The notes below the pieces were generated by a model. That model worked only from the letters and a program-made list of their open reading frames with translations, did not search any database and had not been told where the DNA came from. A program made the translations under genes and the position numbers. Below, piece by piece: positions 2,589 through 51,902 of a stretch of 58,078 nucleotides of DNA. Within the stretch, counting starts at the first letter, position 1, and the number at the start of each line of letters is the position of its first letter. Source of the DNA: an uncultured Pelagibacteraceae bacterium (GTDB lineage Bacteria; Pseudomonadota; Alphaproteobacteria; Pelagibacterales; Pelagibacteraceae); assembly GCA_902635795.1 (NCBI GenBank), contig CACPPH010000003.1, forward strand, positions 1 through 58,078, read 5' to 3'.

Positions 2589-3497
2589 TTACTGGTACCT
2601 TGCTTTTTTCAAAGCATCAGCACATATCTTTTGGGTTAATATTGCTTCATTCATTAAGAGATTATTTTTACTTTCAATAAATTTTTTTAAACAATTTAAG
2701 TATGACTTTCTGTGTCTTACAGAAAAGTCATTATATAATGTCTTTTTGTCAGAAAAGTCGTCAGAGTCTAATGAAAATTTTTCACCATACAATTTAATTT
2801 TTTCAAAATTTCCAAATCTGCACTTTCTACTAAATAATATTTCAACGACTATTCCATTCCTGAGTTTTAAATTAATCATTGCATCTGAGAAATCTCCATT
2901 ATCTAAGAAATCCTCGGAACTAATTGATTTTGAAATTACAATCATTTTCTCTGGTTTCGAATTACCCAACCAACAAGCTAAATCAAAAAAATGAAATCCT
3001 TTATCAAAAAAAAGACCTCCGTTTCTTAATGATAAATCAATATTATGATTGGCCGATCTAGATATTATTTGGATATAATTAACTTTTTTTTTGTTAATTT
3101 TCTTTTTTAAAGCAATATATTCCTTTGAAAATCTACGATTTAAACCAGCGCAAAATTTAATTTTATGTTTTTTTATTAAGTATTTGAGTTTATCAAGTTT
3201 ATTATTATTTGTAATTGGTTTTTCACAATAGATCATTTTCCTAAATTTTATTAATTTTTTTATGTAAAAATCATGCGTAATTGTAGGTGATGCAATTATA
3301 AATAGTTCTATATCTTTTTTTTTTAATATACTATCGAAGTTTCTTGAAGTATTACATTTAAATTTTTTAGATAGTCTTTTACTCAGATTATAATTTTTAT
3401 CAAAAATATAATTTAAGGAAGTGTTTTTTATTTTTATTAAACTTTTACAATGAATTATACCAACTTTTGATAATCCTATCACACAGGATTTAATCAT
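2589..3497 (-). CDS. Gfo/Idh/MocA-family oxidoreductase (1 of 3)
   Basis: A 302-aa NAD(P)-dependent oxidoreductase of the Gfo/Idh/MocA family. The N-terminal Rossmann domain begins at once (IGLSKVGIIHCKSL); the second glycine of the usual G-x-G-x-x-G is replaced, so the motif is loose. The IYCEKPIT segment (about residue 95) holds the conserved E-K-P lysine and is followed by AGLNRRFS. The C-terminal alpha/beta domain contains GGLFFDKGFHFFDLACWL, the family's G-x-x-x-D-x-G-x-H-x-x-D region. It is short for the family (usually 330-390 aa). It is last in a long minus-strand operon, one base after the next gene. Substrate unknown; relatives act on sugars, inositols and sugar acids. Confidence 0.8.
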   Translation of the reverse strand: MIKSCVIGLSKVGIIHCKSLIKIKNTSLNYIFDKNYNLSKRLSKKFKCNTSRNFDSILKKKDIELFIIASPTITHDFYIKKLIKFRKMIYCEKPITNNNKLDKLKYLIKKHKIKFCAGLNRRFSKEYIALKKKINKKKVNYIQIISRSANHNIDLSLRNGGLFFDKGFHFFDLACWLGNSKPEKMIVISKSISSEDFLDNGDFSDAMINLKLRNGIVVEILFSRKCRFGNFEKIKLYGEKFSLDSDDFSDKKTLYNDFSVRHRKSYLNCLKKFIESKNNLLMNEAILTQKICADALKKARYQ

Positions 3498-4628
3498 TTA
3501 AAAAGCTACCCATTTTTTCTTGGATGATGACTTTACACATCCGTCTATAAATCTTGCTGTAAGTAAACCTTCATACGCTGTTGGAAAATAAAACCTTTTC
3601 TTACTATTTTTTGAATTAATTTTTGATGCAATTTCTTTATATAAATTTGAAAAGGCGCTTAAATATCCCTCAGGATGCCCGTACTTAACTCTTGAAAAGT
3701 TTTTTGAAAAACCACTTTCATTGAAACCTCTTTCTAAAACTTTTGTTGCACCATTAGCAGCATTATATTTTAGATAGTTGGGGTCATTCTGTACCCATTC
3801 CAAACTTCCCATCGAACCAAATATTCTTATTCGTAATCCATAAACACCCCCTTTAGCTGTAGTTGATGCCCAAAATAAACCCTTTGCTCCATTCTCGTAA
3901 TTTATGAAAACTTGAGCGTTTGTATCAAATTTAATTTTTTTTGAGTATTGCTTGATATCTGCAAATAGGCTTTTTCCTTTAAGACCAGTAATGTAATTAC
4001 ATAAATGATATGCATGAGATCCTATTTCATTAAGCACAGTAGAAACTCCAGCTATTTTTTTATCTAATTTCCATTTAAATATTTTTTTTGCAGAACCCAG
4101 GGTAACTTTTTTACCGTTAGACCAATCCTGAACATATTCGACGTTAATATATTCAATATTTCCAAGCTTCTTATCTTCCACTAATTTTTTAGCATGTCTT
4201 ACCATTGGATAAGCCGAATAATTATGTGTGAGCCCGTAAACAATCTTTTTATTACTTTTAATTGTTTTATAAAGTTTTTTAGCTTGAGGTAGAGAACCTG
4301 CAAATGGTTTATCAGATATTACATGAATGTTATTTTTAATGAATAATTCCGCTATTTCTTGATGACTCCCAGGGGGTGTCATAATCGCTACTACATCGAT
4401 ACCATTTTTAATTTTTTTTTCAGAATAGCAAAGATCTTTATAATTTTTGTAACACCTATTTTTTTTTATTCCTATACTTGTGCCAAAAGATTGATTGATT
4501 TTATAATTTCTTGAAAAAACGCCAGCTACAATTTCATATTTATCATCGAATCTTGAGGCTATTCTATGTACATGACCAATCCAAGATCCAGGGCCACCAC
4601 CAATGATACCAAGTTTAAGTTTTTTCAT
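3498..4628 (-). CDS. Gfo/Idh/MocA-family oxidoreductase (2 of 3)
   Basis: A 376-aa Gfo/Idh/MocA oxidoreductase. It opens with LKLGIIGGGPGSWIGHVHR, a nucleotide-binding loop of the subgroup in which G-x-G is followed by an insertion and IGxxH. VISDKPFAGS (about residue 95) carries the catalytic-region lysine (D-K-P rather than E-K-P). The C-terminal domain has AGVSTVLNEIGSHAYHL, with the conserved G-S-H. The C-terminus (FYFPTAYEGLLTARFIDGCV) is typical of the family's last helix. The start overlaps the upstream stop (position 4628, TAATG type), so the two are probably translationally coupled. It differs clearly from its two neighbours, so this is not a recent tandem duplication. Reaction likely NAD(P)-linked oxidation of a sugar-type alcohol; substrate unknown. 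Confidence 0.85.
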   Translation of the reverse strand: MKKLKLGIIGGGPGSWIGHVHRIASRFDDKYEIVAGVFSRNYKINQSFGTSIGIKKNRCYKNYKDLCYSEKKIKNGIDVVAIMTPPGSHQEIAELFIKNNIHVISDKPFAGSLPQAKKLYKTIKSNKKIVYGLTHNYSAYPMVRHAKKLVEDKKLGNIEYINVEYVQDWSNGKKVTLGSAKKIFKWKLDKKIAGVSTVLNEIGSHAYHLCNYITGLKGKSLFADIKQYSKKIKFDTNAQVFINYENGAKGLFWASTTAKGGVYGLRIRIFGSMGSLEWVQNDPNYLKYNAANGATKVLERGFNESGFSKNFSRVKYGHPEGYLSAFSNLYKEIASKINSKNSKKRFYFPTAYEGLLTARFIDGCVKSSSKKKWVAF

Positions 4629-5668
4629 TAGTTTACTCTTATTTTTTTTCCAGTTTTAGTACTTCTTAGTATCGCATCAAATATTTTAAGCGATTGCAAG
4701 CCATCATTTCCACTTACTTTTGGTTTAGCTTTTCCAGACACAACATCGCATAAGTGATCAATTTGATTTATTAAAGTAAATCTACTCAAACGAATATTAA
4801 AATCCTTATGATAGATTGGTTTCCACCAACTTCTCTCACCTCTATTGTACCAATGTTTTAAATTAGGAAATTGTATCGAGCCTTTTGTCCCTCCAATAAA
4901 ATATGCTGATTGACTTGTTATAGGGTATGCAGGGTTTTCTCCAGCTGTAAGCTCATAACTGTAAGGAGCTACAATTGTATCAGAAACACTTAATGTACAT
5001 AAAGTACCTGATTTAAAAGTAAAATTAACAATTGCGGTATCTTCAACTTCATATTTTCTAATTTTATTTGAGGTTGTTGCTTGAACATGTGTTATGGGCC
5101 CTAATAAGTAACAAATAAGATCAATATCATGTACTAGATTAATACCTAGAGGACCTCCTCCTTTTTTAATACGCCATTTTTCTTTGTACCAATCTTTATT
5201 TTTGTATAACCAGCACATAACATTAGCAGCAACAATTTTTCCAAGATTTCCGCTATCGATTTGTTTCTTTACTTTAGTTACGATACTGTTGTGCCTTCTA
5301 TGATAGCCAATAAGTAGATGAGTTTTATTTTTTTTTGAGCTTTGAATAATTTTTTTTGCTTTTGAAATATTATCGGAAATTGGTTTTTCTAATAAAACAG
5401 GTATTTTTGCATTTAAAAAACTTATCGTATGTTTTTCGTGAAACTGATTAGGTGTAGCAACAATTACGGCATCTGGTTTATTTTTACTAAGTAATTCAGT
5501 CGACGATCTATAGAATGGAACTTTAAATTTTTTAGCATGAATAATTGAATTTTTATTTACATCGACAATTGAATGGAGCTTTGCTTTTTTTGAAACACTT
5601 AAAGCTTTTAAATGTTGACTACCCATCAAACCAATCCCAACAACCGCAATCTTTATTTTGTTTTTCAC
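4628..5668 (-). CDS. Gfo/Idh/MocA-family oxidoreductase (3 of 3)
   Basis: About 346 aa. The N-terminus after the preferred start reads KIAVVGIGLMGSQHLKAL, a good G-x-G-x-x-G Rossmann loop. IPVLLEKPISDN holds the E-K-P lysine, LLIGYHRRHN follows, and GGPLGINLVHDIDLI is the family G-x-x-x-x-x-x-H-x-x-D region. I prefer the GTG at 5668, one base after the upstream stop, because family proteins start just before the Rossmann loop; an ATG at 5713 would add 15 residues and overlap the upstream gene by 44 bases. Neither start has a clear Shine-Dalgarno sequence. Probably a dehydrogenase of a sugar-like substrate, co-transcribed with the rest of the minus-strand operon. Confidence 0.85.
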   Translation of the reverse strand: MKNKIKIAVVGIGLMGSQHLKALSVSKKAKLHSIVDVNKNSIIHAKKFKVPFYRSSTELLSKNKPDAVIVATPNQFHEKHTISFLNAKIPVLLEKPISDNISKAKKIIQSSKKNKTHLLIGYHRRHNSIVTKVKKQIDSGNLGKIVAANVMCWLYKNKDWYKEKWRIKKGGGPLGINLVHDIDLICYLLGPITHVQATTSNKIRKYEVEDTAIVNFTFKSGTLCTLSVSDTIVAPYSYELTAGENPAYPITSQSAYFIGGTKGSIQFPNLKHWYNRGERSWWKPIYHKDFNIRLSRFTLINQIDHLCDVVSGKAKPKVSGNDGLQSLKIFDAILRSTKTGKKIRVN

Positions 5669-5669
5669 T

Positions 5670-6074
5670 TTAATATTTAAGATTAAATTTATAGTTATTT
5701 TGTCGATAACCACTTTTCATGACTTTTAGGTAATATTTTGCAGGCTTCAAAATAGGAGTTTTTCTTTTCATGAAATAATACATTACATTTTTTCTATTTT
5801 TATTAAAAAATTTTTTTATATATAACTTAGGATAGTCTTCGTATCTATCTAATTTTTTCTCGGTTGCTTTATCTATTTCATAGATTATGCCTTTTACACT
5901 GGAGCCCTTTTTTCTTTGTATATCTGGTACTCTATATTTTGATCTAAAGACTAATTCAAATCCTTTCAAAATATACTTGCTCAGATATTTGGCATTTTTA
6001 TATTTTTTTAAAAAAATTTTTTTATTTAGATTTGTACCGTAAGCAAAGTACAAAAGTTTCTTAGTATTATTCAT
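5670..6074 (-). CDS. Gamma-glutamylcyclotransferase (AIG2/GGCT)-like protein
   Basis: A 134-aa protein of the gamma-glutamylcyclotransferase-like fold. It has the family opening YFAYGTNLNKKIF (usual YFAYGSNL), a central SSVKGIIYEIDKATEKKLDRYEDYP that matches the V-x-G-x-x-Y-x-I ... L-D-x-x-E-x-x-P block, and an acidic residue (E78/D79 area) where the family has its catalytic Glu. Members cleave gamma-glutamyl amides to 5-oxoproline plus amine, but many are uncharacterised. The start overlaps the stop of the CitE-like gene by one base (TAATG), so it belongs to the catabolic operon; a role in removing a gamma-glutamyl group from an intermediate is possible but is inference. Confidence 0.75.
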   Translation of the reverse strand: MNNTKKLLYFAYGTNLNKKIFLKKYKNAKYLSKYILKGFELVFRSKYRVPDIQRKKGSSVKGIIYEIDKATEKKLDRYEDYPKLYIKKFFNKNRKNVMYYFMKRKTPILKPAKYYLKVMKSGYRQNNYKFNLKY

Positions 6075-6724
6075 TAAAAAATTTTGTTTGAGATTTGAAC
6101 TTGGTCCGGATGTATACAGGCTTTACCACCAAAACCTAATTTTTTAACCATATTACATGATTTTTCAAATCCATTTAAATCTTTAAAATTTAAATAAGAG
6201 GTATCAATTGGGCTCATAATATTTTTAGATTTATTTACTATATTTTTTCTAAATTCTAATATTTCTTTTTCATCTTCTGAAATCTCAAGATTTATAGATT
6301 TAGCTAAATCATGAGATCCAAAAGATATAATTTGAATTCTTTCTGAAAAAGAACAAATCTCCTCAAGATTAGCTAGACCGTTTATACTTTCCAAAATTGG
6401 GATTATATCAGTTTTCGATTTCTCAGTTTTTTTTAATAATATATCTATCTCAATTAATTGTTTTTTTGTTTCTGTAAACGGAAGAAATATTCCAGGGAAT
6501 TTTTCTGATGTTACAAATTCTAAATCTGAATTATTATTTATCCTTATATATGTTTGATCTTTATTAACATTGCATTCTTTTATTATCTTTTTTGCCTGTT
6601 CTTTCTGATCATCAGGAACAGTTGACTCTAAGTCAAGAACAATTAAATCTGCATTTAATGTATAAGCTTTTTTAATTTTTTTTTCTTCATGTCCTGGAAC
6701 AAATAAAACAGATCTATATTTCAT
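6074..6724 (-). CDS. HpcH/HpaI (CitE-like) aldolase/lyase family protein
   Basis: A 216-aa TIM-barrel protein of the CitE/malyl-CoA lyase group. Visible family features are RSVLFVPGH at residues 4-12, VLDLEST at 29-35 (usual DLED), R61 in the IRIN strand, E112 in ILESINGL, FGSHDLA around 135-141, and GGKACIHPDQ at 199-208. CitE-like enzymes cleave or form C-C bonds of acyl-CoA thioesters with Mg2+. It is shorter than typical members (about 270-290 aa) and lacks the C-terminal extension that covers the CoA site in citrate lyase beta and malyl-CoA lyases. The start overlaps the enolase-superfamily gene by 11 bases. With a CoA ligase and a crotonase in the same operon, a CoA-ester or 2-oxo-acid lyase step is likely; exact substrate unknown. 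Confidence 0.82.
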   Translation of the reverse strand: MKYRSVLFVPGHEEKKIKKAYTLNADLIVLDLESTVPDDQKEQAKKIIKECNVNKDQTYIRINNNSDLEFVTSEKFPGIFLPFTETKKQLIEIDILLKKTEKSKTDIIPILESINGLANLEEICSFSERIQIISFGSHDLAKSINLEISEDEKEILEFRKNIVNKSKNIMSPIDTSYLNFKDLNGFEKSCNMVKKLGFGGKACIHPDQVQISNKIF

Positions 6725-7802
6725 ATTTACTTAATTTATTATAATCTAAGTCAATACCAAGACCTGGTCCTGAAGGTAATTTATATTTCCCATTTAATGC
6801 TCTTTTAAAATTTGGGTAGAATTCTTGATCAATATCTAAATAGAATCTCTCAATATATGTATCTTTTTCCATCAACGCAGCTAATTGAAGAGTAGCTAAA
6901 AAACCTGGTCCAAAATAAGCAGTGTGAGGCATTACAGAGACATTATTTTTTTCTGCATGCTGAATAATTTTGAACATTTCATAAATACCACCAACTTTAA
7001 TTACTGATGGTTGAACAAAAGTAACTGCTTTTTGTTTGATCATTGATTTAAACTCAAATTCTGTACACGCATTTTCCCCACAGGCTAAGGGTATTCCAAG
7101 CTCTTTATTCAATTTTGCAAGAGTTTCATAATCTTCCGGCGGGTAAATAGGTTCTTCCAACCAAGTTAGTTTCATACTTTTTAAAAAATCTTTTTTGGAT
7201 AATGTTTCTTCATAAGTCCAAGGACAATTAGTATCTAACATTAAAGGAAGATGACCTATTCCTTTTCTTCCAGCTTCAATGCAATCATTTTCTATTTCAT
7301 GAAGTTTTATAGCTTGGTAACCATCATCTAATGATTGCTTACATTTTTGCTCTATAATTTTTGGATCTCCATATCTAAAAAGACTTGAATAGGCTTTAAA
7401 TAGATCTTTATTTTTTTTTCCTAACAATTCATGAATTGGCTTATTTTTTTCTTTGCCTAAAGCATCCCATAATGCAATTTCAACACCAGATATTGCAAAC
7501 ATTGTTATCCCGTATCTACCAAATAAGTGCAAAGATTTTTGAAGAGTTAAAAGAAGTTCCGGTATATTACTCATATCTTTTCCAACGAGCAAAGGAGTCA
7601 CCATTTCTTCAATTGCTATCTTTACTGCTTTCCAACTTGTATAACCAAAGGCTTCACCCCAACCAGTGATACCTTTATCTGTATCAATTTTTACTAAGTT
7701 AAATTCTAAACTTTTCCATTCTTTTCCATGAAAAATTACCTTTTTTCCTCCATGGCTAAACGGCATACTCAAAGTGATTGCTTTGATCGATTTAATTTTC
7801 AT
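6714..7802 (-). CDS. Mandelate racemase/muconate lactonizing enzyme family protein (enolase superfamily)
   Basis: A 362-aa enolase-superfamily enzyme: N-terminal capping domain (to about 125), then a TIM barrel. Metal ligands are visible as D190 (MLDTN), E216 (WLEEP) and E243 (CGEN). The second-strand base motif is K166-L-H168, not the common K-x-K. On the sixth strand QPSVIKVGG places Ser266 where the MR group has the Asp of its His-Asp dyad; the His itself is likely H293 (MPHT). The superfamily abstracts a proton alpha to a carboxylate, giving dehydration, racemisation or cycloisomerisation. The residue set suggests an unassigned subgroup, perhaps an acid-sugar dehydratase. It starts at the stop of the crotonase gene (TAATG type) and overlaps the CitE-like gene by 11 bases. 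Confidence 0.85.
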   Translation of the reverse strand: MKIKSIKAITLSMPFSHGGKKVIFHGKEWKSLEFNLVKIDTDKGITGWGEAFGYTSWKAVKIAIEEMVTPLLVGKDMSNIPELLLTLQKSLHLFGRYGITMFAISGVEIALWDALGKEKNKPIHELLGKKNKDLFKAYSSLFRYGDPKIIEQKCKQSLDDGYQAIKLHEIENDCIEAGRKGIGHLPLMLDTNCPWTYEETLSKKDFLKSMKLTWLEEPIYPPEDYETLAKLNKELGIPLACGENACTEFEFKSMIKQKAVTFVQPSVIKVGGIYEMFKIIQHAEKNNVSVMPHTAYFGPGFLATLQLAALMEKDTYIERFYLDIDQEFYPNFKRALNGKYKLPSGPGLGIDLDYNKLSKYEI

Positions 7803-8572
7803 TATCTAAATTTTTTGAAATTTGGCTTTCTTTTTTCTAGAAAGGCCTTTGCGCCTTCAGCCTGTTCTCCAGTTTTAAAATAATCAGGAGCAACTTCTTC
7901 GACCATACCTTTTTGGGTAATTTTTAGAATTTCTTCAAATTGTTTTCTAAAACTGGCCTTTAATATCTTTAAACAAGTTGGTGCAGCTTTTAAAATTTCA
8001 TCACCATACTTTTTAACTTCTTCATCTAATTTATCTTTCTTCACTACTGAATTTACCAAACCCCAATTCATCATCTCTTTCGCTGAGTATCTTTTGCAAG
8101 TCATCCACATTTCTCTTGCACGTTTGTGTCCTAATATATTTGCAGAGTGAGCAACGATAGCACCTCCCGCAGGAGAACCAACTCTGGGACCATTTTGTCC
8201 AAATATAGAATTCTCACTTGCAATAGTTAAATCACAGAAGTAAGCCATATGATTTCCACCGCCAATCGCATATCCATCCACTTTAGCAATGATTGGTTTA
8301 CTACATTTTGTTAAGTGAATGTGAAATTCGTATTCATGATCTTGAAATTCTTTAGAACTTTCCCAATTCATATCTCCACCTGAGCAAAAAGCTCTATCTC
8401 CAGCACCTGATAAAACTATTACTCCAACTTCTTTATCTTTTTCTGCAGCATCAAGTGCTGCCTTAAGTTCATGAAGAGTTACTGGTGTAAAAGCATTTAA
8501 TACCTTAGGTCTATTAATAGTGACATGAGCGTACTCATCTTTAACTTCATATAATATATCTTTAAATTGCAT
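7802..8572 (-). CDS. Enoyl-CoA hydratase/isomerase family protein, MenB/BadI-like
   Basis: A 256-aa crotonase-fold protein. Oxyanion-hole segments are AFCSGGDMNW (61-70) and YAIGGGNHMAY (101-111). FGQNGPRVGS (124-133), REMWMTCKRYSA and the C-terminal AFLEKRKPNF resemble 1,4-dihydroxy-2-naphthoyl-CoA synthase (MenB) and 2-ketocyclohexanecarboxyl-CoA hydrolase (BadI) more than classic hydratases. However the MenB GSFDGGYG segment reads GSPAGGAI here, so the catalytic Asp is Ala135 and the Tyr is Ala138. Menaquinone synthesis is unlikely: no other men genes are present and SAR11-type cells use ubiquinone. A CoA-thioester hydration, isomerisation or ring/C-C cleavage is more likely. It overlaps the CoA ligase gene by 11 bases. 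Confidence 0.85.
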   Translation of the reverse strand: MQFKDILYEVKDEYAHVTINRPKVLNAFTPVTLHELKAALDAAEKDKEVGVIVLSGAGDRAFCSGGDMNWESSKEFQDHEYEFHIHLTKCSKPIIAKVDGYAIGGGNHMAYFCDLTIASENSIFGQNGPRVGSPAGGAIVAHSANILGHKRAREMWMTCKRYSAKEMMNWGLVNSVVKKDKLDEEVKKYGDEILKAAPTCLKILKASFRKQFEEILKITQKGMVEEVAPDYFKTGEQAEGAKAFLEKRKPNFKKFR

Positions 8573-10475: not shown

Positions 10476-10480
10476 AAGTC

Positions 10481-11425: not shown

Positions 11426-12462
11426 TAAGCTTTCATTTTAACTTGAACACCAAAGAAGCCTGTTGGCTTGATCATTAAAACAACTATCATTAATAAAAAG
11501 GCGTATAAATCTTTGTGACTTCCAGAAATATAAAAAGAAGAAGCTGTTTCAAATATTCCAACTGTAAAACCACCAACTATTGCACCAGGCAGATTACCAA
11601 AACCACCTACGACCGCAGCAGCAAAAGCTTTCATAAGAATGATATAACCCATGAATACAACAACTTGATAAGTTGGACCTACTAAAGTCCCTCCAATACC
11701 TGCTATAGCACAAGCTATACCAAAAATAATTGATATGTATAGTGGTACATTTATTCCAACTAGATTTGAAACATCTTTAGAGTAAGCTACTGCTCTAATA
11801 CCTAATCCCATTTTTGTTTTATTTAAAAAGAACCAAAGACCTGCAGCCACAGATAAACCAACTACAATCATCCAAATATAAGTAATCGGTAAAAATAGTC
11901 CTCCAATTTCCATTGGCAAACCTAATTCAGCAGGGAAAGGTTTTGCTACTGGATTCCAAATTAAATAAGCAACGTTTATTAAAACCACTGAAAGACCAAA
12001 TCCACATATGATTATTCCCATTCCAGCTACAGTGTAACCACCACCTTTTTTTGTTAGAGGTCTTAAGAAAACTCTTTCAATAAAAACCCCAAATAAACCC
12101 ATCGAAACAAAGGCTGTAAATAAACAAACTACGTAAATTATCCAACCATAAGCATCAGGAAATATATTAAAAATCCAATCTTGATTACCCAAAAGATTAA
12201 ACATGGTAAGACCGGCAAAAGCACCTATCATGAAAAATTCGCCGTGAGAAAAATTAACTACATCTAGACCTGTGTAGATCAACGAAATTCCAAGCGCAAC
12301 TAAGCCATAAATAATACCAACAGAAAGACCAATTGTTAAAACTGATTTGAGTGATTCAATATTCATATCGGGGCTATTCACACACCAACCGATATAAAGA
12401 AGTACAAATGTTCCAAATATAATATTTTCACCTTTTTTTCCAATTCTAAGTTTATTAAACAT
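11425..12462 (-). CDS. livH: Branched-chain amino acid-type ABC transporter permease (LivH)
   Basis: Inner-membrane permease of the LivH family, about 345 aa with some nine hydrophobic segments. The first long segment is followed by GIIYGLVALGISLIYTGLDVVNFSHGEFFMIGA, the classic LivH region (about residues 50-80), and the C-terminus has AAVVGGFGNLPGAIVGG, the coupling/exit signature. Start chosen at ATG 12462: GGAGGG (12473-12478) precedes it and it overlaps the livF stop by eight bases; an upstream TTG at 12480 would put that ribosome site inside the gene. An extra hydrophobic segment near the N-terminus makes it longer than E. coli LivH (about 308 aa). Works with LivM, LivG, LivF and LivK of this window. 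Confidence 0.92.
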   Translation of the reverse strand: MFNKLRIGKKGENIIFGTFVLLYIGWCVNSPDMNIESLKSVLTIGLSVGIIYGLVALGISLIYTGLDVVNFSHGEFFMIGAFAGLTMFNLLGNQDWIFNIFPDAYGWIIYVVCLFTAFVSMGLFGVFIERVFLRPLTKKGGGYTVAGMGIIICGFGLSVVLINVAYLIWNPVAKPFPAELGLPMEIGGLFLPITYIWMIVVGLSVAAGLWFFLNKTKMGLGIRAVAYSKDVSNLVGINVPLYISIIFGIACAIAGIGGTLVGPTYQVVVFMGYIILMKAFAAAVVGGFGNLPGAIVGGFTVGIFETASSFYISGSHKDLYAFLLMIVVLMIKPTGFFGVQVKMKA

Positions 12463-13174
12463 TGGCTTTAGTCCCTCCAAGATATGACTCTTTTACACTT
12501 TCGTCGTACATTAATTTCTTACTATCGCCCTCAACATTGATCACACCGTCTTTAATTACATACCCATAATCAGCAAGTAATAATGCCATCCTAACATTTT
12601 GTTCAACGACTAGAACTGTTAATCCATCTTGTCTAATTCTATTAATATTTTTAAAAATATCTAAAACAATTTGAGGCGCTAAAGCAGCACTAGGTTCGTC
12701 TAGCATTATCATTTTAGGATTAGACATTAACCCTCTTCCAATACATAACATTTGCAACTCTCCACCTGATAAAGTTGCGGCCAATTGATCTTTTCTTTCA
12801 TTTAATCTTGGAAAATAGTTATAAACCTTTTCTAAATTATCTGACAGTTGTTGTTTACTTTTTAAAATAAATCCACCTAATTTTAAATTTTCAGTGACAG
12901 ACATTGCAGGGAAAACATCCTTTCCTTGAGTTACTTGCACTAATCCTTTTCCAACTATTTCGTGAGCAGGCAAGTTTTGAATTTGCTCACCATTAAATTC
13001 GATCGTACCTTTCCATGATCTAATCAATCCAGATGCAGCTCTAAGAATAGTTGATTTGCCTGTCCCATTACCACCAAGCAATGCAACTATAGATTGTTTT
13101 TCAACTTTCATATTAGCTCCATTTAAAATTTGTACAGAGCCATATCCAGAAATAAGTTGATCTATCTTAAGCAA
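12455..13174 (-). CDS. livF: Branched-chain amino acid-type ABC transporter ATP-binding protein (LivF)
   Basis: A 239-aa ABC ATPase. Walker A GGNGTGKST is near residue 34, signature LSGGELQ near 138, Walker B MIMLDEPSAALAP near 155-167, switch His replaced by Glu/Gln (VVEQN), as is usual in LivF. First gene of the long minus-strand operon. The start is TTG at 13174, giving MLKIDQLISGYG, which matches LivF N-termini; GGAGG lies at 13179-13183. A tiny out-of-frame ATG-Ile-Ala-stop (13178 to 13167) overlaps this start, so initiation may be weak or regulated. It energises uptake together with LivG. Confidence 0.93.
   Translation of the reverse strand: MLKIDQLISGYGSVQILNGANMKVEKQSIVALLGGNGTGKSTILRAASGLIRSWKGTIEFNGEQIQNLPAHEIVGKGLVQVTQGKDVFPAMSVTENLKLGGFILKSKQQLSDNLEKVYNYFPRLNERKDQLAATLSGGELQMLCIGRGLMSNPKMIMLDEPSAALAPQIVLDIFKNINRIRQDGLTVLVVEQNVRMALLLADYGYVIKDGVINVEGDSKKLMYDESVKESYLGGTKANV
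12473..12478 (-). promoter_or_regulatory. Ribosome binding site deciding the livH start
   Basis: GGAGGG on the minus strand, ten bases before ATG 12462. It lies inside the last codons of livF and supports the ATG at 12462 rather than the TTG at 12480 as the livH start. Confidence 0.65.
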
Positions 13175-13285
13175 TCATCCTCCAATTTTTTTTTCTGATT
13201 TACCAAAAATGTAACTATTAGTCATAGACATTATAACTATTATTTTATAGCCTTAGCAACAATTAAATAACAAATGGGGGAAATA
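13175..13285. promoter_or_regulatory. Divergent promoter region between livF and livK
   Basis: A 111-base AT-rich gap between two divergent operons, one of the longer ones in this compact window. On plus, TAGACA (13225-13230) and TATAGC (13246-13251) could be a weak -35/-10 pair with a 15-base spacer for livK. GGGGGA at 13276-13281 is the livK ribosome site. On minus, GGAGG at 13179-13183 serves livF. No clear operator palindrome was seen. Both operons are probably controlled from here. Confidence 0.45.
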
Positions 13286-14476
13286 ATGAATAAACTTAAA
13301 TTTGTTTTTTCAGTAATTGTCTTTTCCGCAGGTTTAGTAATCACGACTTTAGCTCAAGCAGAAACAATCAAAATTGGTGTTTCTTTTAGAATGCTATCAG
13401 ATGTTGGTTATAAACACGGAGAGTTAATTACTGATACTGTTGCAAAGTGGAATAAAGAAGGCACTATCAACGGTCAAAAAATCGACTTAACACTTTATAA
13501 CGATGAGTGTAAATCTGAGAAAGGTGTAGCAAACGCAACAAAACTTGCTTACCAAGATAAAGTTCACGTTATAATTGGATCTAGCTGTAGTTCTGTAACA
13601 TTACCTATGGTACCTGTTTCAGCTAAAGCTAAAGTTCCACAAATCATACCTCACTCAACAAATGCTGACATTACTAAAAAGGGTAGTGAATACATTTTTA
13701 GAGTACCTGTATCATCAAGATTTTACAAAATCGTACAAGGTAAATTTACTGCAGAAAATCAAGGTACTAAGATAGCTTACATCTATGGTCCAGATGCTGC
13801 TGGTAAAGATTTTGCATTATCTTTAGCTGATTACATGAGAGAGAACTACAACGTTGAGCCAACTTATATGGTTCAATCTGGAGAAAAAGAAACTGACTTT
13901 AGAAGTTACTTAACTAAAGCTAAAGCTACTAATCCAGAAGTTCTTGTAATTTCAGCTTTATTGGATGAAACAGTTAGAGGACTTGTACAATCGTATGAAG
14001 TTGGAATACCAAAATCTGTTCACAGAGTAACAGCTTCTATTGGTTCTAAAGTAGAAATACCAATAAATGCTGGTTCTGCTGCAAAAGGTGTAACTTTCTC
14101 AGCTGCATTTGCTGCATCTGACACTAGACCTGTAGCTAAGAAATTTGTGAAAATGGTTAAAGACAAATATGGTGTTGTACCTGGTCACGACTTTTCACAA
14201 ATGATGGACTTACTAGATATTCTAGAGATAGCTCTTAAAAAAGTTAAATTCACTGGAGATCTAGCTGCTGACAGAAATAAAGTTAGAGACGCAATAGCTG
14301 CGACAACTGACTTTAGAGGTTTAGCTTCTGGTCCAATCAATTTCTGTAAATCAGGAACACCTGAGTGTAGAGATGGTAACAGAACTCCTGTTATGATTGA
14401 GTACACTAAAGGTGGAAAAAACTTTAAAACAAAAGTTGCTGGTACTGTAACATTTAATGCTAGCGCTGGTTTATAA
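13286..14476 (+). CDS. livK: Branched-chain amino acid-type ABC transporter substrate-binding protein (LivK-like)
   Basis: Periplasmic binding protein of the LivK/Peripla_BP_6 type, about 396 aa. The ATG at 13286 gives a clean signal peptide (MNKLKF, hydrophobic core, cleavage after TLAQA before ETIKIG); an ATG at 13274 would place the GGGGGA ribosome site inside the gene. After the signal come IGVSFRMLSDVGYKHGE and LTLYNDECKSEKGVANATKL, then VIIGSSCSSVTLPMVPVS, typical of the fold, and a second lobe IAYIYGPDAAGKDFA. Codon use is less extremely AT-rich than in neighbours, as expected for a highly expressed binding protein. It is followed by a strong terminator that separates it from the rest of the operon. 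Ligand unknown; the family binds amino acids, amides, short acids and aromatics. Confidence 0.92.
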   Translation: MNKLKFVFSVIVFSAGLVITTLAQAETIKIGVSFRMLSDVGYKHGELITDTVAKWNKEGTINGQKIDLTLYNDECKSEKGVANATKLAYQDKVHVIIGSSCSSVTLPMVPVSAKAKVPQIIPHSTNADITKKGSEYIFRVPVSSRFYKIVQGKFTAENQGTKIAYIYGPDAAGKDFALSLADYMRENYNVEPTYMVQSGEKETDFRSYLTKAKATNPEVLVISALLDETVRGLVQSYEVGIPKSVHRVTASIGSKVEIPINAGSAAKGVTFSAAFAASDTRPVAKKFVKMVKDKYGVVPGHDFSQMMDLLDILEIALKKVKFTGDLAADRNKVRDAIAATTDFRGLASGPINFCKSGTPECRDGNRTPVMIEYTKGGKNFKTKVAGTVTFNASAGL

Positions 14477-14491
14477 TAGTTAAAAAAATTG

Positions 14492-14523
14492 TGAGCGGTA
14501 GATAAAACTACCGCTCATTTTTT
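14492..14523 (+). terminator. Intrinsic terminator after livK
   Basis: Perfect 10-bp inverted repeat TGAGCGGTAG / CTACCGCTCA (14492-14501 and 14508-14517) with a 6-base loop (ATAAAA), followed by six T residues (14518-14523). It should stop most transcripts after livK and give the binding protein more mRNA than the downstream oxygenase, livM and livG. Confidence 0.93.
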
Positions 14524-14539
14524 CAAGGAAACCACAAAA

Positions 14540-15406
14540 ATGATAAACGTTAATAAATTGAAGAAAGTTAAGAGCAACTTTCCTGTAATGGTTGGCAAAG
14601 GTGCTATTTCAAAAAAAGATTGTGAAAAACTTATAGACGAAATTCGAAATGCAAAATCATTCGATGATTTAATACAAGGAGGTAGAAATAGAATTAACAA
14701 AGGGTCAAGTAATTTTAAAAATTATTTAAAAAAATCAAAATTATCTAACAAATTATATAAACAATTTAATAGCCAATCTTTTTACAAAAAAGTTGAAAAT
14801 AGATTTAAAAAAACTTTTAAGGATTATGGTTGGTCAAATGCATACTTGCCTAGCAAATTTTTGCGAGAAAAATTTACAAATAAAAAATTGATGAATTCAA
14901 AAGAATTAATGAAAATGTTGGGTAAAACTTATAAAAACCCTAATGTGAATTTAGATATAGATTTCTCTGTTTCTAGAGGCGGTTATAGATTAAGGCCCCA
15001 CAGAGATGATGTAACAAGACTTTATAATTTTCTTATATATTTAAATGATATACCAAAAAAAAATGGCGGAGCTTTATCAATTTTTAAAAAGAAAACTGAT
15101 ATGAAATATAGAAAAAGTTTTAAAAGATTTCCTGGTATTTCTGAACTAGCAAAAGTTAAAGAATTTACTCCGTCAAAAGGGAGTGTAATTTTTTTCCAAT
15201 CTACACCTAACTCTTACCATGGTGTATCTTTATTTAGAGAAATCAAAGGCAAGAAAAGATTTTTCATTTATGGAAGTTATGCTTTAAGTAAACCTGTTGT
15301 ATGGAGATATAAAAACGTTAGCTATTTACCCAAAATTAAGAAAACAAAAAAAAGAATGCTCACATCTTCACATGACTCAGATTATTTAATGAGAGAAGTT
15401 GGATAA
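14540..15406 (+). CDS. 2OG-Fe(II) oxygenase family protein
   Basis: A 288-aa protein with the double-stranded beta-helix iron site of 2-oxoglutarate-dependent oxygenases: LRPHRDD places H154 and D156, NSYHGVS places the distal H227, and R240 (KGKKR) can bind the 2-oxoglutarate carboxylate. LYNFLIYLNDIPKKNGGALSIF is a typical core strand pair (Lx-Y-L-N ... G-G-x-L). The N-terminal 130 residues are Lys/Asn-rich and match no domain I know. Prolyl-hydroxylase-like members of this group hydroxylate small molecules or protein residues. It sits between the livK terminator and livM, whose start overlaps its stop (TAATG), so a small molecule carried by the transporter is a reasonable guess for its substrate. 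Confidence 0.82.
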   Translation: MINVNKLKKVKSNFPVMVGKGAISKKDCEKLIDEIRNAKSFDDLIQGGRNRINKGSSNFKNYLKKSKLSNKLYKQFNSQSFYKKVENRFKKTFKDYGWSNAYLPSKFLREKFTNKKLMNSKELMKMLGKTYKNPNVNLDIDFSVSRGGYRLRPHRDDVTRLYNFLIYLNDIPKKNGGALSIFKKKTDMKYRKSFKRFPGISELAKVKEFTPSKGSVIFFQSTPNSYHGVSLFREIKGKKRFFIYGSYALSKPVVWRYKNVSYLPKIKKTKKRMLTSSHDSDYLMREVG

Positions 15407-16398
15407 TGGAAAAATTTAAATCGATTATCAGAGATTATCCTTTTATTGCTTTTATTATAGCTTTCGTCATCTTAGCTTTTGTACCGTCAGTAGTTTTCAC
15501 GGATGTTTATCAATCACATTTAGCTACTTTAATATTTGTGAACATTGTGGTTGCCGCAGGACTAAACATTGTTAAGGGTTATTGCGGTCAAGTTACAGTT
15601 GGACATGTTGGCTTATTTGCAGTTGGTTCTTATACTGCTGGAACATTGTTTTTATATTTAGGACTTGGTTTTTGGGCAACTTTACCCATAGCTATAATAG
15701 TTACTGCATTTTTTGGAGTAGCAATGGGAATTCCATCTTTTAGATTGGAAGGTCCTTATTTAGCCTTAGCGACATTGGGAGGAGGCGAGGCAATAAGATT
15801 GTTTATTGAAAACGGAAACTTTTTTAGATCTACATTTGGTATTTCTGATATTCCAACACCTTCTTTAATGGGCTACAACTTCGACTCTCCAGATAGATAT
15901 TATTTCATCTCAATGACAATAATGATTATAGCGGTTTACTTTTCATTCAGTATTTTGAGATCTGGAGTTGGAAGAGCGTTTATGTCTATCAGAGAGGATC
16001 CAATTTGTGCTGCAGCCGCTGGAATTAATGTAAAAAAATATAAGATCTTAGCTTTTATTCTTAGCGCTATGTTTGCTGGAGCGGCAGGTGCAGTTTATGC
16101 TCACATGCCTCCAGGATACATTCATCCTAATAATTACACAGTTATAGAAATGGTAACCTTCTTAGCTATGGTTGTCCTAGGAGGTCTCGGTCATATTTGG
16201 GGTGGAATTATTGGCGCTATAGTAATTACAATTGTTTATGACTTAACTAGACCATTATATAAATATCAACTTTTAATATTTGGTTTAACAATTGTATTAA
16301 CTATTTTATTTATGCCTAAGGGTTTAGGCGGTTTTATTGACAGATATTTCTTAGAAAAGAGATTTAAAAAGAAAACTGGAACAGAAAAAACAACATGA
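15406..16398 (+). CDS. livM: Branched-chain amino acid-type ABC transporter permease (LivM)
   Basis: A 330-aa inner-membrane permease with about nine or ten hydrophobic segments. Family marks are GLNIVKGYCGQVTVGHVGLFAVGSY-type segment near residues 50-75 (G-x-x-G-Q-x-x-x-G-H), PSFRLEGPYLALATL near 108, SIREDPICAAAAGIN near 195-210 (the cytoplasmic coupling loop that contacts the ATPase) and FLAMVVLGGLGHIWGGIIGA near 250. Starts on the stop of the oxygenase gene and overlaps livG by four bases (ATGA). Confidence 0.93.
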   Translation: MEKFKSIIRDYPFIAFIIAFVILAFVPSVVFTDVYQSHLATLIFVNIVVAAGLNIVKGYCGQVTVGHVGLFAVGSYTAGTLFLYLGLGFWATLPIAIIVTAFFGVAMGIPSFRLEGPYLALATLGGGEAIRLFIENGNFFRSTFGISDIPTPSLMGYNFDSPDRYYFISMTIMIIAVYFSFSILRSGVGRAFMSIREDPICAAAAGINVKKYKILAFILSAMFAGAAGAVYAHMPPGYIHPNNYTVIEMVTFLAMVVLGGLGHIWGGIIGAIVITIVYDLTRPLYKYQLLIFGLTIVLTILFMPKGLGGFIDRYFLEKRFKKKTGTEKTT

Positions 16399-17192
16399 TT
16401 TTAAAAACTAAACAATTATCTAAATCATTTGGTGGTTTGAAAGCTATTAATAAAGTTGATTTTGAACTTCCAAAAAATGAAATTAGAGGAATAATTGGAC
16501 CCAATGGCTCAGGTAAAAGTACATTTTTTAATTTAGTTTCAGGAATCTATGATAGCGATCCTGGAAGCTATATCGAGTTTGATGGTCATGATATTACTTT
16601 TACACCTCCACATGAGATTGCTAGTTATGGTTTATCAAGAACGTTCCAATTACTAAGACTTTATCAAGATATGACAGTTATAGACAATGTTATGTCGGGA
16701 TATCATACTAGAGTTCCTTACAAGTTTTTCGATGCAGTTATAGGAAGAAAAAAAATCTGGGATCAAGAAAGAGCTATCAAAGAGGAAATGATGGAACTCC
16801 TTTCTTTTGTAGGATTAGCAGACTATGCAGAGCTAAATGCTAGTGAGCTTTCTGGCGGTCAGAGAAGATTATTAGTTTTAGCAAGAGCAATCGCTATGAA
16901 ACCAAAATTACTAATGTTAGACGAACCAGCTGCGGGTTTATCCCCAGTCAACGTAGATAATTTAATGAAAATTATTATGCAGCTAAAAGAAAAATATGGC
17001 CTTACTCTTATTATTATAGAGCATATTTTAAAAGTCGTAATGGATACTTGTAATTCAGTAACTGTTTTTGACCATGGTCAGAAAATTGCAGAGGGTACTC
17101 CAGCTCAAGTAAAAGATGACAATGCTGTAATCGAGGCGTATTTGGGTAAAAAAATGGACGATGAAGAGATGAGAAAAGCTCTTGCAGTCTAA
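16395..17192 (+). CDS. livG: Branched-chain amino acid-type ABC transporter ATP-binding protein (LivG)
   Basis: A 265-aa ABC ATPase of the LivG type. Walker A GPNGSGKST is near residues 36-44, the Q-loop region RTFQLLRLY near 82, signature LSGGQRR near 155, Walker B LLMLDEPAAGLSP near 175-187, switch His in IIIEHILK. A LivG-type insertion (the VMSGYHTR segment) is present between the Q loop and the signature. It completes the transporter: livK, livM, livG on plus and livF, livH on the divergent minus operon. Confidence 0.93.
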   Translation: MILKTKQLSKSFGGLKAINKVDFELPKNEIRGIIGPNGSGKSTFFNLVSGIYDSDPGSYIEFDGHDITFTPPHEIASYGLSRTFQLLRLYQDMTVIDNVMSGYHTRVPYKFFDAVIGRKKIWDQERAIKEEMMELLSFVGLADYAELNASELSGGQRRLLVLARAIAMKPKLLMLDEPAAGLSPVNVDNLMKIIMQLKEKYGLTLIIIEHILKVVMDTCNSVTVFDHGQKIAEGTPAQVKDDNAVIEAYLGKKMDDEEMRKALAV

Positions 17193-17230
17193 AATGAATT
17201 TGATAATATTTTTCCATTCATAACGATTCA

Positions 17231-18214
17231 ATGAGCCAAAATATTAAAAAAATTTTTGAGAAACAAGGTTTCATAAGATTAAAGGGTGTTTTAGATTATA
17301 AAGAGGATTTAGAACCAATTTTAAATGATATGGCTTTTATCATGGATAGGCTCATTCATAGATTTGTTCCTAAAAGTGACAAAGTAAAAGTACTTAATTA
17401 TGAGTTTAAGAAAAAATACTCATATTTGGTTTCTTTAGATATTCCTGAACTTGATCAATATTTTAACATAAGACTTCCTGAAAAAAACATAAACGCTAAT
17501 AGTGATTTCTTTGCAAGTCAATCAATATGGAATTTAATTAAAAATAAAAAGATTTTAGATAAGATTGAAAAAATTCTAGGTCCCGAGATAGCTTCTAATC
17601 CTTGTCAAAATTCAAGAATTAAACAACCTGAAAAAGGTGTTGCAAAAAAGAATTTAAATGACGGCCTTGTTGGAAGAACTCCTTGGCATCAAGATGCCGG
17701 CGTTATGAATAAAAAAGGACAGAAGGGTACTGAATTAGTAACGTGTTGGATACCTTTTACTAAAACAAGAATAGAAAATGGTTGTATGCTTGCTGTAAAA
17801 GAAAGTCATAAATTTGGACTTGTTAACCACGATTTTGGAAGCAAGGGACAAGTAGAAGTTAGAGGCAAAGAAATAATCGATAAATTATCAACTGTGCCTC
17901 TTGAAGCTGATGTCGGAGATATAATATTATTAAATAGATATCTACTTCATTGTTCACTACCAAATAAATCAAAAAATTTTAGAATAAGTATGGACTTGAG
18001 ATATAATAAAGCAGGTCAGCCTTCAGGAAGAGACCCATTGCCTAATTTTATTGTTAAAAGTAAAAACAAAAAAAATATAAAAGTACAAAATTACAAACAA
18101 TGGATAGCTTTATGGGAAAAAGCTAAAGTAAAATGCATTCCAAGAAAATGGTCTTATAAATATCCTCTTCCTACTTTCAAAGGAACTAAAAGAGATTTAG
18201 CAAATATTATTTAA
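17231..18214 (+). CDS. Phytanoyl-CoA dioxygenase (PhyH) family protein
   Basis: A 327-aa iron/2-oxoglutarate dioxygenase of the PhyH family. TPWHQDAG gives H153 and D155, LLHCSLPN gives the distal H240, and KNFRISMDLRY gives R251 for 2-oxoglutarate. VTCWIPFTKTRIENGCMLAVKESH is the usual PhyH strand with the N-G-x-L/M ... S-H turn. Bacterial PhyH proteins hydroxylate diverse small molecules (ectoine, phosphonates, acyl-CoAs). It follows livG by 38 bases on the same strand and overlaps the next gene's start by one base, so it is likely co-transcribed with the transporter. It has no close resemblance to the other oxygenase in this operon. Confidence 0.85.
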   Translation: MSQNIKKIFEKQGFIRLKGVLDYKEDLEPILNDMAFIMDRLIHRFVPKSDKVKVLNYEFKKKYSYLVSLDIPELDQYFNIRLPEKNINANSDFFASQSIWNLIKNKKILDKIEKILGPEIASNPCQNSRIKQPEKGVAKKNLNDGLVGRTPWHQDAGVMNKKGQKGTELVTCWIPFTKTRIENGCMLAVKESHKFGLVNHDFGSKGQVEVRGKEIIDKLSTVPLEADVGDIILLNRYLLHCSLPNKSKNFRISMDLRYNKAGQPSGRDPLPNFIVKSKNKKNIKVQNYKQWIALWEKAKVKCIPRKWSYKYPLPTFKGTKRDLANII

Positions 18215-19140
18215 TGAATTCAAAATTATCGGAGAAGAATTATCTTCCCGAATTTTTTCTAGCTTGTCTCGGATATTTTTTATTTGTAACTCAAGACGCA
18301 ATAGTAAAATATATTGCTGAAGATTACGACATAATACAGATAATTTTCGTTAACTCCTTGTTTGCTCTTATACCTATTATTTTGTACACCCAAACCCTCG
18401 ATGGCTGGAAAGAATTAAAGGGTGCTAATTTAAAAATTCATTTTTTTAGAACTTTAACGATGGTATTAGCTGTTTTTTTTGCCTACACAGGATTCTATTT
18501 ATTACCAATGGTTACTATGTACAGTATTGTATTTTTAATTCCATTATTAATTACTATTGGATCGGTTTTATTTTTAGGTGAAGTCGTTAGATGGAAAAGA
18601 TTTACTGCTATAGTAATTGGTTTTATTGGAACACTTATTTCTATTAATCCTTTTGGAGCCGAAATTAATAGTTACGTATTTATAGCTTTGTTGTGCCCAA
18701 TTTTTGCGTCTGCAAGTTATTTAATAGTAAGAAAATATGGTTATGAGGAGAGCTTGTTCTCATTTTTAATATTTGGAAAAATTTTTATGATATTGTTTTC
18801 TGGTATATTTGTATTCTTTGTTTTCAAAGAGATGACATTTAATGATTTAGTTTTGAACGCTATTTCTGGAATTTCTAGAGGAACAGCCATGATATTTGTC
18901 ATCAATGCCGCTAGACACTTGCCTGGAGCAATTTTTGGATCAATTTTATATACTCAAATTTTTGCAGGTGTATTTTTGGGTTACGTTGTTTTTAATGAGA
19001 TACCTACAATTAATAATTATATAGGAAACTTAATAATAATTGCAGCAGGTGTATATATTGTTTTAAGAGAAGTAAAATTAAAGAAAAACATTGTTACTTC
19101 AACAGCAAGACACCCAACTATTCCTATTAAAAAAGATTAA
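18214..19140 (+). CDS. DMT-superfamily (EamA) transporter
   Basis: A 308-aa integral membrane protein with about ten hydrophobic helices arranged as two EamA repeats (roughly 12-145 and 155-295), the normal layout of drug/metabolite exporters. RTLTMVLAVFFAYTGFYLLPM is the repeat-1 motif and GTAMIFVINAARHLPGA the corresponding repeat-2 region. Exporter or importer of small metabolites; substrate unknown. It may release an end-product of the neighbouring pathway. Its last four bases overlap the convergent PanB-like gene. Confidence 0.85.
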   Translation: MNSKLSEKNYLPEFFLACLGYFLFVTQDAIVKYIAEDYDIIQIIFVNSLFALIPIILYTQTLDGWKELKGANLKIHFFRTLTMVLAVFFAYTGFYLLPMVTMYSIVFLIPLLITIGSVLFLGEVVRWKRFTAIVIGFIGTLISINPFGAEINSYVFIALLCPIFASASYLIVRKYGYEESLFSFLIFGKIFMILFSGIFVFFVFKEMTFNDLVLNAISGISRGTAMIFVINAARHLPGAIFGSILYTQIFAGVFLGYVVFNEIPTINNYIGNLIIIAAGVYIVLREVKLKKNIVTSTARHPTIPIKKD

Positions 19141-19949: not shown

Positions 19950-19966
19950 ATTTATATTTAATCAAA

Positions 19967-20929: not shown

Positions 20930-20980
20930 AATCTATTAATATCATTTAAAGAAGTTTATCAATTAAATATAATTTTTATT

Positions 20981-23545: not shown

Positions 23546-23679
23546 AAAATAAGTGTACCAAATTTTTAGTGGATTTTATCATCAAAAACTCAATATTTTC
23601 CTATTTTTTTATTCACACAGCACCCAAATCGTTCACATATAAAGGTGATTTAATAAGACAAAAGTTTAGAATCCGACTC

Positions 23680-50016: not shown

Positions 50017-50120
50017 CACAATTAAGAGTTGTAATTTTAAAAAGTTTCTGCACTGTACTTTTAACATTTATTTTGATTGAATAAGAAAACTTATAACAAC
50101 AACAACGAGGGAAATAATCT

Positions 50121-51854: not shown

Positions 51855-51874
51855 TTTAGGTTTAATCTAAATTT

Positions 51875-51902
51875 AAAGGGGGCTTAACGGCCCCCTTTTT
51901 TT
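51875..51902 (+). terminator. Intrinsic terminator after glpV
   Basis: GGGGGC (51878-51883) and GCCCCC (51890-51895) form a strong stem with loop TTAACG, extended by AAA/TTT, followed by seven T residues. It lies between the binding-protein gene and the ABC subunit genes and should lower downstream expression. Confidence 0.93.

Follow-up and report, generated by a model that had tools for sequence, protein, structure and literature searches.

Gene content of the locus

SAR11 is the most abundant bacterial group of the ocean and has small, streamlined genomes. We analysed a stretch of 58,078 nucleotides from an uncultured member of this group (Pelagibacteraceae; assembly GCA_902635795.1, contig CACPPH010000003.1, our contig C3), referred to as the window below, which belongs to a genome assembly of 735 kb that is 65% complete. 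The window carries a 19.9-kb block (2589-22499) in which the genes of a Liv-type ATP-binding cassette (ABC) importer stand together with a set of catabolic enzymes. An earlier note on this DNA had described an importer divided over two divergent gene sets that also contain such enzymes. This description was confirmed, as all genes named in it are open reading frames located where it placed them, and scans against Pfam and NCBIfam assigned them to the expected families.

The minus-strand operon runs from 13174 to 2589 and comprises eleven genes. It begins with the LivF-type ATPase (12455-13174; nearest NCBIfam model LivF) and the LivH-type permease (11425-12480; PF02653), followed by a PanE/ApbA-like 2-oxo-acid or hydroxy-acid dehydrogenase (10481-11425; TIGR00745), an acyl-coenzyme A (CoA) ligase of the acetyl-CoA synthetase family (8562-10475; PF00501, PF16177), a MenB/BadI-like crotonase (7802-8572), an enolase-superfamily (MR_MLE) protein resembling dehydratases and cycloisomerases (6714-7802; PF13378, PF02746), a short CitE-like C-C lyase of the HpcH/HpaI family (6074-6724; PF03328) and a gamma-glutamylcyclotransferase/AIG2-like protein (GGACT; 5670-6074; PF06094). 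Three Gfo/Idh oxidoreductases close the operon: A (gfoA, 4628-5713; assigned by Pfam), B (gfoB, 3498-4628; PF01408) and C (gfoC, 2589-3497; PF01408). A divergent intergenic region of 99 bp (13175-13273) separates livF from livK, with which the plus strand begins at 13274. There, the LivK-type periplasmic binding protein (13274-14476; PF13458) is followed by a 2-oxoglutarate (2OG)-Fe(II) dioxygenase of the 2OG-FeII_Oxy_3 type (14540-15406; PF13640), the LivM-type permease (15406-16398; PF02653), the LivG-type ATPase (16395-17192; PF00005, PF12399), a PhyH-family 2OG-Fe(II) dioxygenase (17231-18214; PF05721) and an EamA-family transporter, presumably an exporter (18214-19140; PF00892).

The system had originally been bounded at 2589-19140. 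Its left edge was correct, whereas on the right the same insertion continues up to 22499 with four more genes spanning 19137-22503. These encode a PanB-like protein without the metal ligands of ketopantoate hydroxymethyltransferase (KPHMT) (19137-19949, minus strand; PF02548), a DUF1907/C11orf54-type decarboxylase (19967-20929, minus strand; PF08925), a protein resembling 2-oxo-4-enoate hydratases and 4-oxalocrotonate decarboxylases (20981-21760, plus strand; nearest NCBIfam models HpaH and DmpH, below their cut-offs) and a short-chain dehydrogenase (SDR; 21757-22503, plus strand; PF00106). Within the block, 15 of 20 gene junctions overlap or are at most 5 bp wide. The spacing of 0-11 bases or overlap given previously does not hold throughout, as livK and the first dioxygenase are 63 bp apart and livG and the PhyH gene 38 bp. 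With the start codons as chosen, gfoA overlaps the GGACT gene by 44 bp and livH overlaps livF by 26 bp.

Island borders and insertion sites

The block lies between lpxB, which ends at 2588 and whose stop is abutted by gfoC, and a histone deacetylase (HDAC)-like gene, whose start at 22500 is overlapped by the stop of the SDR gene. We located lpxB in six of six genomes selected from the same genus that lack the island crotonase, and three of them (G036, G052, G120) were examined. In each of the three, lpxB is directly followed by the HDAC-like gene with overlapping ends, and the flank is otherwise collinear with the window except for one small gene. Because lpxB abuts the HDAC-like gene in these relatives, the insert can be delimited to 2589-22499 and includes the PanB-like, DUF1907, hydratase-like and SDR genes. 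The block is therefore present in some close relatives and absent from others with a clean empty site, as is typical of a flexible genomic island. In two genomes of a second genus, g2 (G015, G024), it is flanked by a pntAB/transaldolase-like region on one side and by purE/purK-like genes on the other. G179 has it at a third site beside an ABC-transporter region; the flanking genes at these two sites were named by eye. The window contains no tRNA gene and gave no Rfam match, and the G+C content of the island, at 0.310, differs little from that of the rest (0.297). Next to the HDAC-like gene (23569-24381) we noted a membrane protein that contains a long Pro-Glu repeat and varies in length among relatives.

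Co-occurrence and conservation of the island genes

The island crotonase was detected in 36 of 197 genomes of the family, that of the window included, and in two of 14 genera. The earlier note had considered the genes to form one uptake-and-degradation system, a view that would not hold if homologues of the enzymes failed to co-occur with this livKMGFH set in related genomes. The comparison was done in 75 genomes picked by hand, not at random, from the crotonase survey (35 positive, 40 negative), and the view withstood it: LivK was present in 34 of the 35 crotonase-positive genomes, DUF1907 in 32 and the PanB-like gene in 28, while all three were absent from the 40 negative ones, a co-occurrence close to all-or-none. 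Contig ends that cut the island account for some of the misses, namely G187 for LivK and G135 for DUF1907 and the PanB-like gene. In G106 and G183, DUF1907 follows eamA without the PanB-like gene between them, so this gene is usual but not universal. Since the island genomes and loci are related to each other, these counts do not represent independent events.

Among 30 loci, 26 reach livG and all of these contain eamA; the other four (L046, L050, L054, L057) end earlier. As the 26 loci were chosen for having the crotonase, livG and eamA, the full counts of these three genes are given by construction. The other importer genes, the CoA ligase and the MR_MLE, CitE-like and PanE-like genes occur in 26/26 as well, and gfoA and the PhyH gene in 25/26. 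Less constant are the hydratase-like gene (24), the PanB-like and DUF1907 genes (22 each), the SDR gene (14), gfoB and the first dioxygenase (11 each), gfoC (10) and the GGACT gene (6). The outer genes of the island are undercounted here because the fetched loci stop at 20 kb. The core of the island comprises the five importer genes, the CoA ligase, the crotonase, the MR_MLE, CitE-like and PanE-like genes, gfoA, the PhyH gene and eamA; of the previously listed genes, gfoB, gfoC, the GGACT gene and the first dioxygenase are optional. In loci lacking this dioxygenase, livK and livM are 68-101 bp apart.

Between the window and six other islands the ratio of nonsynonymous to synonymous substitution rates (dN/dS) remained below 0.28 wherever it could be calculated, although these are rough values, as many dS exceed 1. 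Taken together, the comparison of genome sequences shows a block that behaves as a mobile island of SAR11: it occurs, or is missing, as one unit, is found at more than one place in the chromosome and is maintained by purifying selection. In the comparison with L055, dS amounts to 0.19 for the PanB-like gene and to 1.99 for the ligase gene, and such differences among the genes of one island pair look like gene-wise recombination. The PanB-like gene (19137-19949) is near-identical in this pair across two genera while its island neighbours are saturated; it has probably been exchanged recently on its own between the two genera.

The importer and its likely ligand

With a Peripla_BP_6 binding protein, two BPD_transp_2 permeases and two ATPases, the transporter has all components of a HAAT/LIV-family ABC importer. 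LivK of the island is 26% identical to both LivJ and LivK of Escherichia coli. It retains Ser79 and Thr102 of LivJ, which we take to bind the ligand carboxylate, whereas Tyr202 and Tyr150 are lost and Glu226, presumably the acidic residue that binds the alpha-ammonium group, is replaced by serine. Serine is found at this position in the protein of the window, in six other SAR11 proteins and in nine relatives outside SAR11; in a separate alignment the column is a gap in the SAR11 proteins, which likewise leaves them without an acid. A histidine at LivJ position 100 is common to the SAR11 proteins and eight of the nine relatives. Retention of the carboxylate-binding residues together with loss of Glu226 suggests that the ligand is likely a carboxylic acid other than an alpha-amino acid. 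Binding of Leu/Ile/Val, which had been named as an outcome that would speak against the proposed system, is made unlikely by the loss of this acid and of the aromatic pocket residues. No LivK homologue was detected on plasmids at 1e-30, or in viral contigs by a pattern-based scan.

Two further transport loci should be mentioned. The same genome has a second complete LIV-type importer on contig C12 (G000:C12; L219:7577-12358), followed by small membrane proteins and, as judged by eye, a tripartite tricarboxylate-like transporter. In the window itself (47489-55703), genes resembling those of glycerol-3-phosphate dehydrogenase and glycerol kinase precede an ABC importer with a 577-aa binding protein, two ATPases and two permeases, which by eye resembles a glycerol uptake system.

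Outside SAR11, LivK homologues of about 45-54% identity are present in at least five of 366 genomes from the rest of the class, one of them as a contig-end fragment (G231), and homologues of 49-53% in six of 31 genomes of a relatives search around G435, G435 included, which makes ten genomes in all. In the class-genome searches with the ligase, MR_MLE, LivK and PanB-like proteins, no more than 3, 5, 5 and 7 candidates, respectively, were scored in each genome, so that presence counts from them are lower bounds. Nine LivK loci were fetched, G231 being left out, and the seven of at least 13 kb were used; L264 and L266, on contigs of less than 6.5 kb, were set aside. In the seven loci, identity to the island is 44-64% for the five importer genes, and L256 and L257 show the same divergent livHF/livKMG layout. 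Partners known from the island recur in them: PanE-like genes in 6/7, Gfo/Idh A homologues (26-34% identity) in 5/7, SDR genes in 5/7 and hydratase-like genes in 2/7.

Five of the seven loci (L256, L258, L262, L263, L265) additionally contain genes of quinate/shikimate or protocatechuate metabolism, i.e. dehydroquinase, QuiC, AroE-like or LigAB genes. L256 encodes a QuiC-type 3-dehydroshikimate dehydratase (845 bits), a dehydroquinase-like protein (47% identical to that of L262) and an AroE-like protein (26% identical to that of L265). L262 has a type II dehydroquinase together with a QuiC-type protein that is shorter (352 bits), L265 combines a QuiC-type protein (623 bits) with an AroE-like one, and L263 has a dehydroquinase as the sole gene of this kind. 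In L258, the protocatechuate 4,5-dioxygenase LigAB, a Gfo/Idh protein containing PF19858 and a 4-oxalomesaconate tautomerase that narrowly misses its cut-off were detected. None of these genes was found in 59 control loci of at least 10 kb, seven of which have other LIV permeases. L262 (430-13119), L263, L265 and L258 share a recurring block of PanE-like, SDR, acyl-CoA dehydrogenase, CoA-transferase, Gfo/Idh, MaoC, SDR and LIV importer genes with dehydroquinase, QuiC-type or LigAB neighbours, which possibly represents another undescribed cyclic-acid pathway.

Enzyme families and active-site residues

Active-site residues were compared with the E. coli proteins in 30 SAR11 sequences for the ligase and crotonase, 28 for the PanE-like and 22 for the PanB-like protein. 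The PanE-like protein scores above the TIGR00745 cut-off (247.6 versus 141.35 bits), which indicates family membership only, and retains Asn98, Lys176, Ser244 and Glu256, presumably the catalytic residues of PanE, in 28/28 sequences. The CoA ligase falls short of the AcsA model (460.1 bits, cut-off 724.95) and hence of an assignment as acetyl-CoA synthetase. Its Lys609 is retained in 29/30 sequences, with one gap, and Trp414, which we assume to close the acyl pocket of AcsA and to restrict that enzyme to acetate, is replaced by glycine in all 30.

In the crotonase, Gln154, Gly156, Ser161 and Trp184 of MenB are retained. Asp163 (E. coli numbering), which we take to be catalytic in MenB, is changed to alanine and Tyr258 to phenylalanine in 30/30 SAR11 sequences. 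A homologue of 59% identity with the same alanine adjoins an acetoacetate-CoA ligase gene and a tripartite ATP-independent periplasmic (TRAP) importer on a plasmid of Leisingera sp. M527 (L129:14995-17771); the two crotonases suggest that lack of the catalytic aspartate extends over a wider MenB-like family.

The MR_MLE residues K166, H168, D190, E216, E243, S266 and H293, among them the metal ligands, are invariant in the 30 SAR11 and 19 class sequences. Its nearest NCBIfam models are arabinonate and galactonate dehydratases, far below the cut-offs, and among its PDB matches galactonate dehydratase ranks first and 3,6-anhydrogalactonate cycloisomerase third. Similarly, the CitE-like lyase is nearest to citE and RipC, both far below cut-off. 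Of the Gfo/Idh proteins, A and C come closest to an inositol dehydrogenase model and B comes closest to levoglucosan dehydrogenase, again without reaching any cut-off. The hydratase-like protein has no Pfam match; its nearest PDB entry is 2-keto-4-pentenoate hydratase, and in part of the islands it is only about 40% identical.

The PanB-like protein retains H136 and E181, whereas Asp45, Asp84 and Glu114, which we take to be the metal ligands of PanB, and Lys112, presumably another functional residue, are absent in 22/22 SAR11 sequences, so that it does not qualify as a KPHMT; the stretch around Asp45 is poorly aligned and lies outside the PDB alignment, which agrees for positions 84, 112 and 114. 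Relatives of 35-47% identity occur in at least 16 of 361 other class genomes. Those on the best-listed rhizobial plasmids reach 54-57%, among 15 listed of 274 plasmid records matching at 1e-25. Three rhizobial plasmid genes of this kind (L253:12001-12831, L254:12001-12831, L255:11971-12837) are annotated as 3-methyl-2-oxobutanoate hydroxymethyltransferase and have ribokinase, sterol-desaturase-family, Rieske and FAD oxidoreductase genes as neighbours, a context for which we know of no substrate. If the metal ligands are absent here as well, this annotation is doubtful.

DUF1907 matches PF08925 with 213.1 bits over 285/285 positions and is a member of this family; no homologue was detected on plasmids at 1e-25. 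A complete island outside SAR11 was not found: the best homologues reached 44% for the CoA ligase, 48% for the MR_MLE protein and about 60% for the crotonase, one listing of which comprised the best 80 of 559 matches, and the neighbours in the loci examined named no substrate.

Proposed function and competing explanations

In our preferred reading, held tentatively and with somewhat less than even confidence, the island would import and degrade, in a CoA-dependent manner, a cyclic hydroxy-carboxylate that belongs to the quinate/shikimate class or is closely related to it. We favour a cyclic acid because relatives of the importer sub-family sit with quinate, shikimate and protocatechuate genes, the models closest to the crotonase are MenB and BadI, and the ligase has glycine in place of the tryptophan. 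In the scheme that follows the protein families are observed, and the reaction order and the substrate are proposed. LivK together with LivHM and LivFG would take up a carboxylic acid other than an alpha-amino acid, most likely one of the class named above. Gfo/Idh A, the PanE-like protein and the SDR may act as NAD(P) dehydrogenases that oxidise hydroxyl groups, and the enolase-superfamily enzyme could eliminate water or shift a ring bond. After formation of a CoA thioester by the ligase, the crotonase would break a C-C bond, thereby opening the ring, or hydrolyse the product. The hydratase-like protein, DUF1907 as a beta-keto-acid decarboxylase and the CitE-like lyase would then cut the chain into units of central metabolism. 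The 2OG dioxygenase might serve as a hydroxylase that widens the substrate range, and EamA might export an inhibitory side product. A more specific version is speculative, and we consider it unlikely: a non-aromatising, CoA-dependent route that opens quinate/shikimate-type cyclohexane(ene) carboxylate rings without an aromatic-ring dioxygenase. Here the imported acid would be oxidised and ligated to CoA before the MenB/BadI-like crotonase with its altered site opens the ring, and decarboxylation and aldol-type cleavage would follow.

Several observations weigh against a cyclic acid. Among the best 25 families of the Pfam and NCBIfam scans (livF by NCBIfam only, livM by Pfam only, livH in a separate scan only), no island protein matched an enzyme of the known quinate/shikimate route, such as the trio of quinate dehydrogenase, dehydroquinase and 3-dehydroshikimate dehydratase. 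The importer is only about 50-60% identical to its quinate-linked relatives, so the ligand may have shifted, and the AlphaFold model of LivK is too poor to use (mean pLDDT, the predicted local distance difference test, 49.8). As for the relatives, all QuiC matches (352-845 bits) remain below the curated cut-off of 1200 bits, so that the name applies at family level only; dehydroquinase, the only such gene of L263, and AroE-like genes could be biosynthetic; and no quinate/shikimate genes were found in the stretches examined of L257 and L259. Furthermore, the positive loci themselves supplied the query proteins of the control comparison, and its 59 loci are a convenience sample. On the side of the enzymes, the crotonase has lost Asp163 and its Leisingera homologue lies in a different context, and in the six examined of at least 38 class homologues of the MR_MLE protein the context is unrelated.

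The strongest rival, which we regard as possible although rather unlikely, is the breakdown of a linear sugar acid (aldonate or uronate). Here, Gfo/Idh and SDR enzymes would oxidise, MR_MLE would dehydrate, the hydratase/hydrolase-family and CitE-like proteins would cleave, DUF1907 would decarboxylate a 3-keto-aldonate, and ligase and crotonase would handle a short acid. This explains the MR_MLE, Gfo/Idh and DUF1907 proteins well, since the nearest models of the first two are the sugar-acid, inositol and levoglucosan enzymes named above and C11orf54, a DUF1907 protein, acts on 3-dehydro-L-gulonate (PMC12435205). However, the MR_MLE protein falls far short of the curated cut-offs, and Ser266, invariant in 49/49 sequences, occupies what we take to be the position of the usual His-Asp partner. 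The MenB/BadI-like crotonase and the cyclic-acid neighbours of the importer are also left unexplained. That the imported compound is instead modified by the dioxygenases and dehydrogenases and exported by EamA, as biotransformation or salvage with little gain of carbon, would fit the presence of EamA in all 26 loci reaching livG and of PhyH in 25 of them. We hold it improbable, as the CitE-like lyase and the CoA ligase in 26/26 loci and DUF1907 in 32/35 genomes suggest degradation.

A branched-chain amino acid or 2-keto-acid system linked to pantoate chemistry, with PanB and PanE beside Liv, is suggested by the importer family, the PanE-like catalytic residues and the PanB-family fold. As the leading explanation it was ruled out by the absence of the PanB metal-ligand residues and the loss of the acid in LivK, and even as a side possibility it is very improbable: Lys112 of PanB is missing too, no panC or panD family was found among the island proteins by Pfam or NCBIfam, and another LIV importer is available on contig C12 of the same genome. 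Least probable of all, in our view, is that two or more unrelated functions hitch-hike in one recombination hot spot. Some genes are indeed optional and the lpxB-HDAC junction could accept other cassettes, but most genes stay together at three sites despite internal rearrangement, and in other families this importer is again accompanied by panE, gfoA, sdr and hydratase-family genes. Degradation of mycosporines or of apiose was also weighed but not retained.

For the small genomes of SAR11, a block of 20 kb for import and degradation is a heavy investment, and it predicts a dissolved carbon substrate that divides otherwise similar strains. It also brings together, in a single pathway open to testing, enzyme groups that are little understood: PanB-like proteins without metal ligands, MenB-like proteins without Asp163 and bacterial DUF1907. 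The relatives of the importer supply a short list of candidate ligands. If true, degradation of a cyclic acid would be, to our knowledge, the first cyclic-acid catabolism assigned to SAR11, and the non-aromatising ring opening would be a new pathway.

Comparison with known systems

Import and catabolism on a flexible island of SAR11 are a known kind of arrangement, whereas this combination of genes is new in the literature searched: in agreement with the earlier note, no described pathway containing it was found within the main texts of open-licence literature. The terms 'branched-chain', 'enoyl-CoA' and 'mandelate' are absent from the main text of PMC12636525. A flexible island for purine degradation has been described in SAR11 (main text of PMC7318151); it is likewise a metabolic cassette that some genomospecies have and others lack. 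Its genes are different, and 'branched-chain', 'enoyl-CoA' and 'lpxB' do not appear in that main text.

At the level of single components, LivJ/LivK-LivHMGF of E. coli has the same five components and families as the island importer and shares Ser79 and Thr102, whereas in the island the subunits are encoded in two divergent operons together with enzymes. MenB and BadI, crotonases of ring closure and ring opening on CoA thioesters, are the best NCBIfam and PDB matches of the island crotonase, yet it remains below both curated cut-offs (TIGR01929, 238.8 versus 342.7 bits; TIGR03210, 251.7 versus 467.6 bits). Human C11orf54/PTD012 is a 3-dehydro-L-gulonate decarboxylase with a fold related to acetolactate decarboxylase (PMC12435205), the activity also being stated in a passage of PMC12921845. 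The island DUF1907 protein aligns with it near end to end (PDB 1xcr) and keeps the zinc-binding HTH...H motif with a spacing two residues longer, in the context of a bacterial island. The importers of L256, L258, L262, L263 and L265 finally are 48-62% identical to that of the island in all five subunits and share the panE, gfoA and sdr partners, in L256 the hydratase-like gene too. Where these loci have dehydroquinase, QuiC, AroE-like or LigAB genes, the SAR11 island instead carries the CoA ligase, the MenB/BadI-like crotonase, the MR_MLE protein and the CitE-like lyase.

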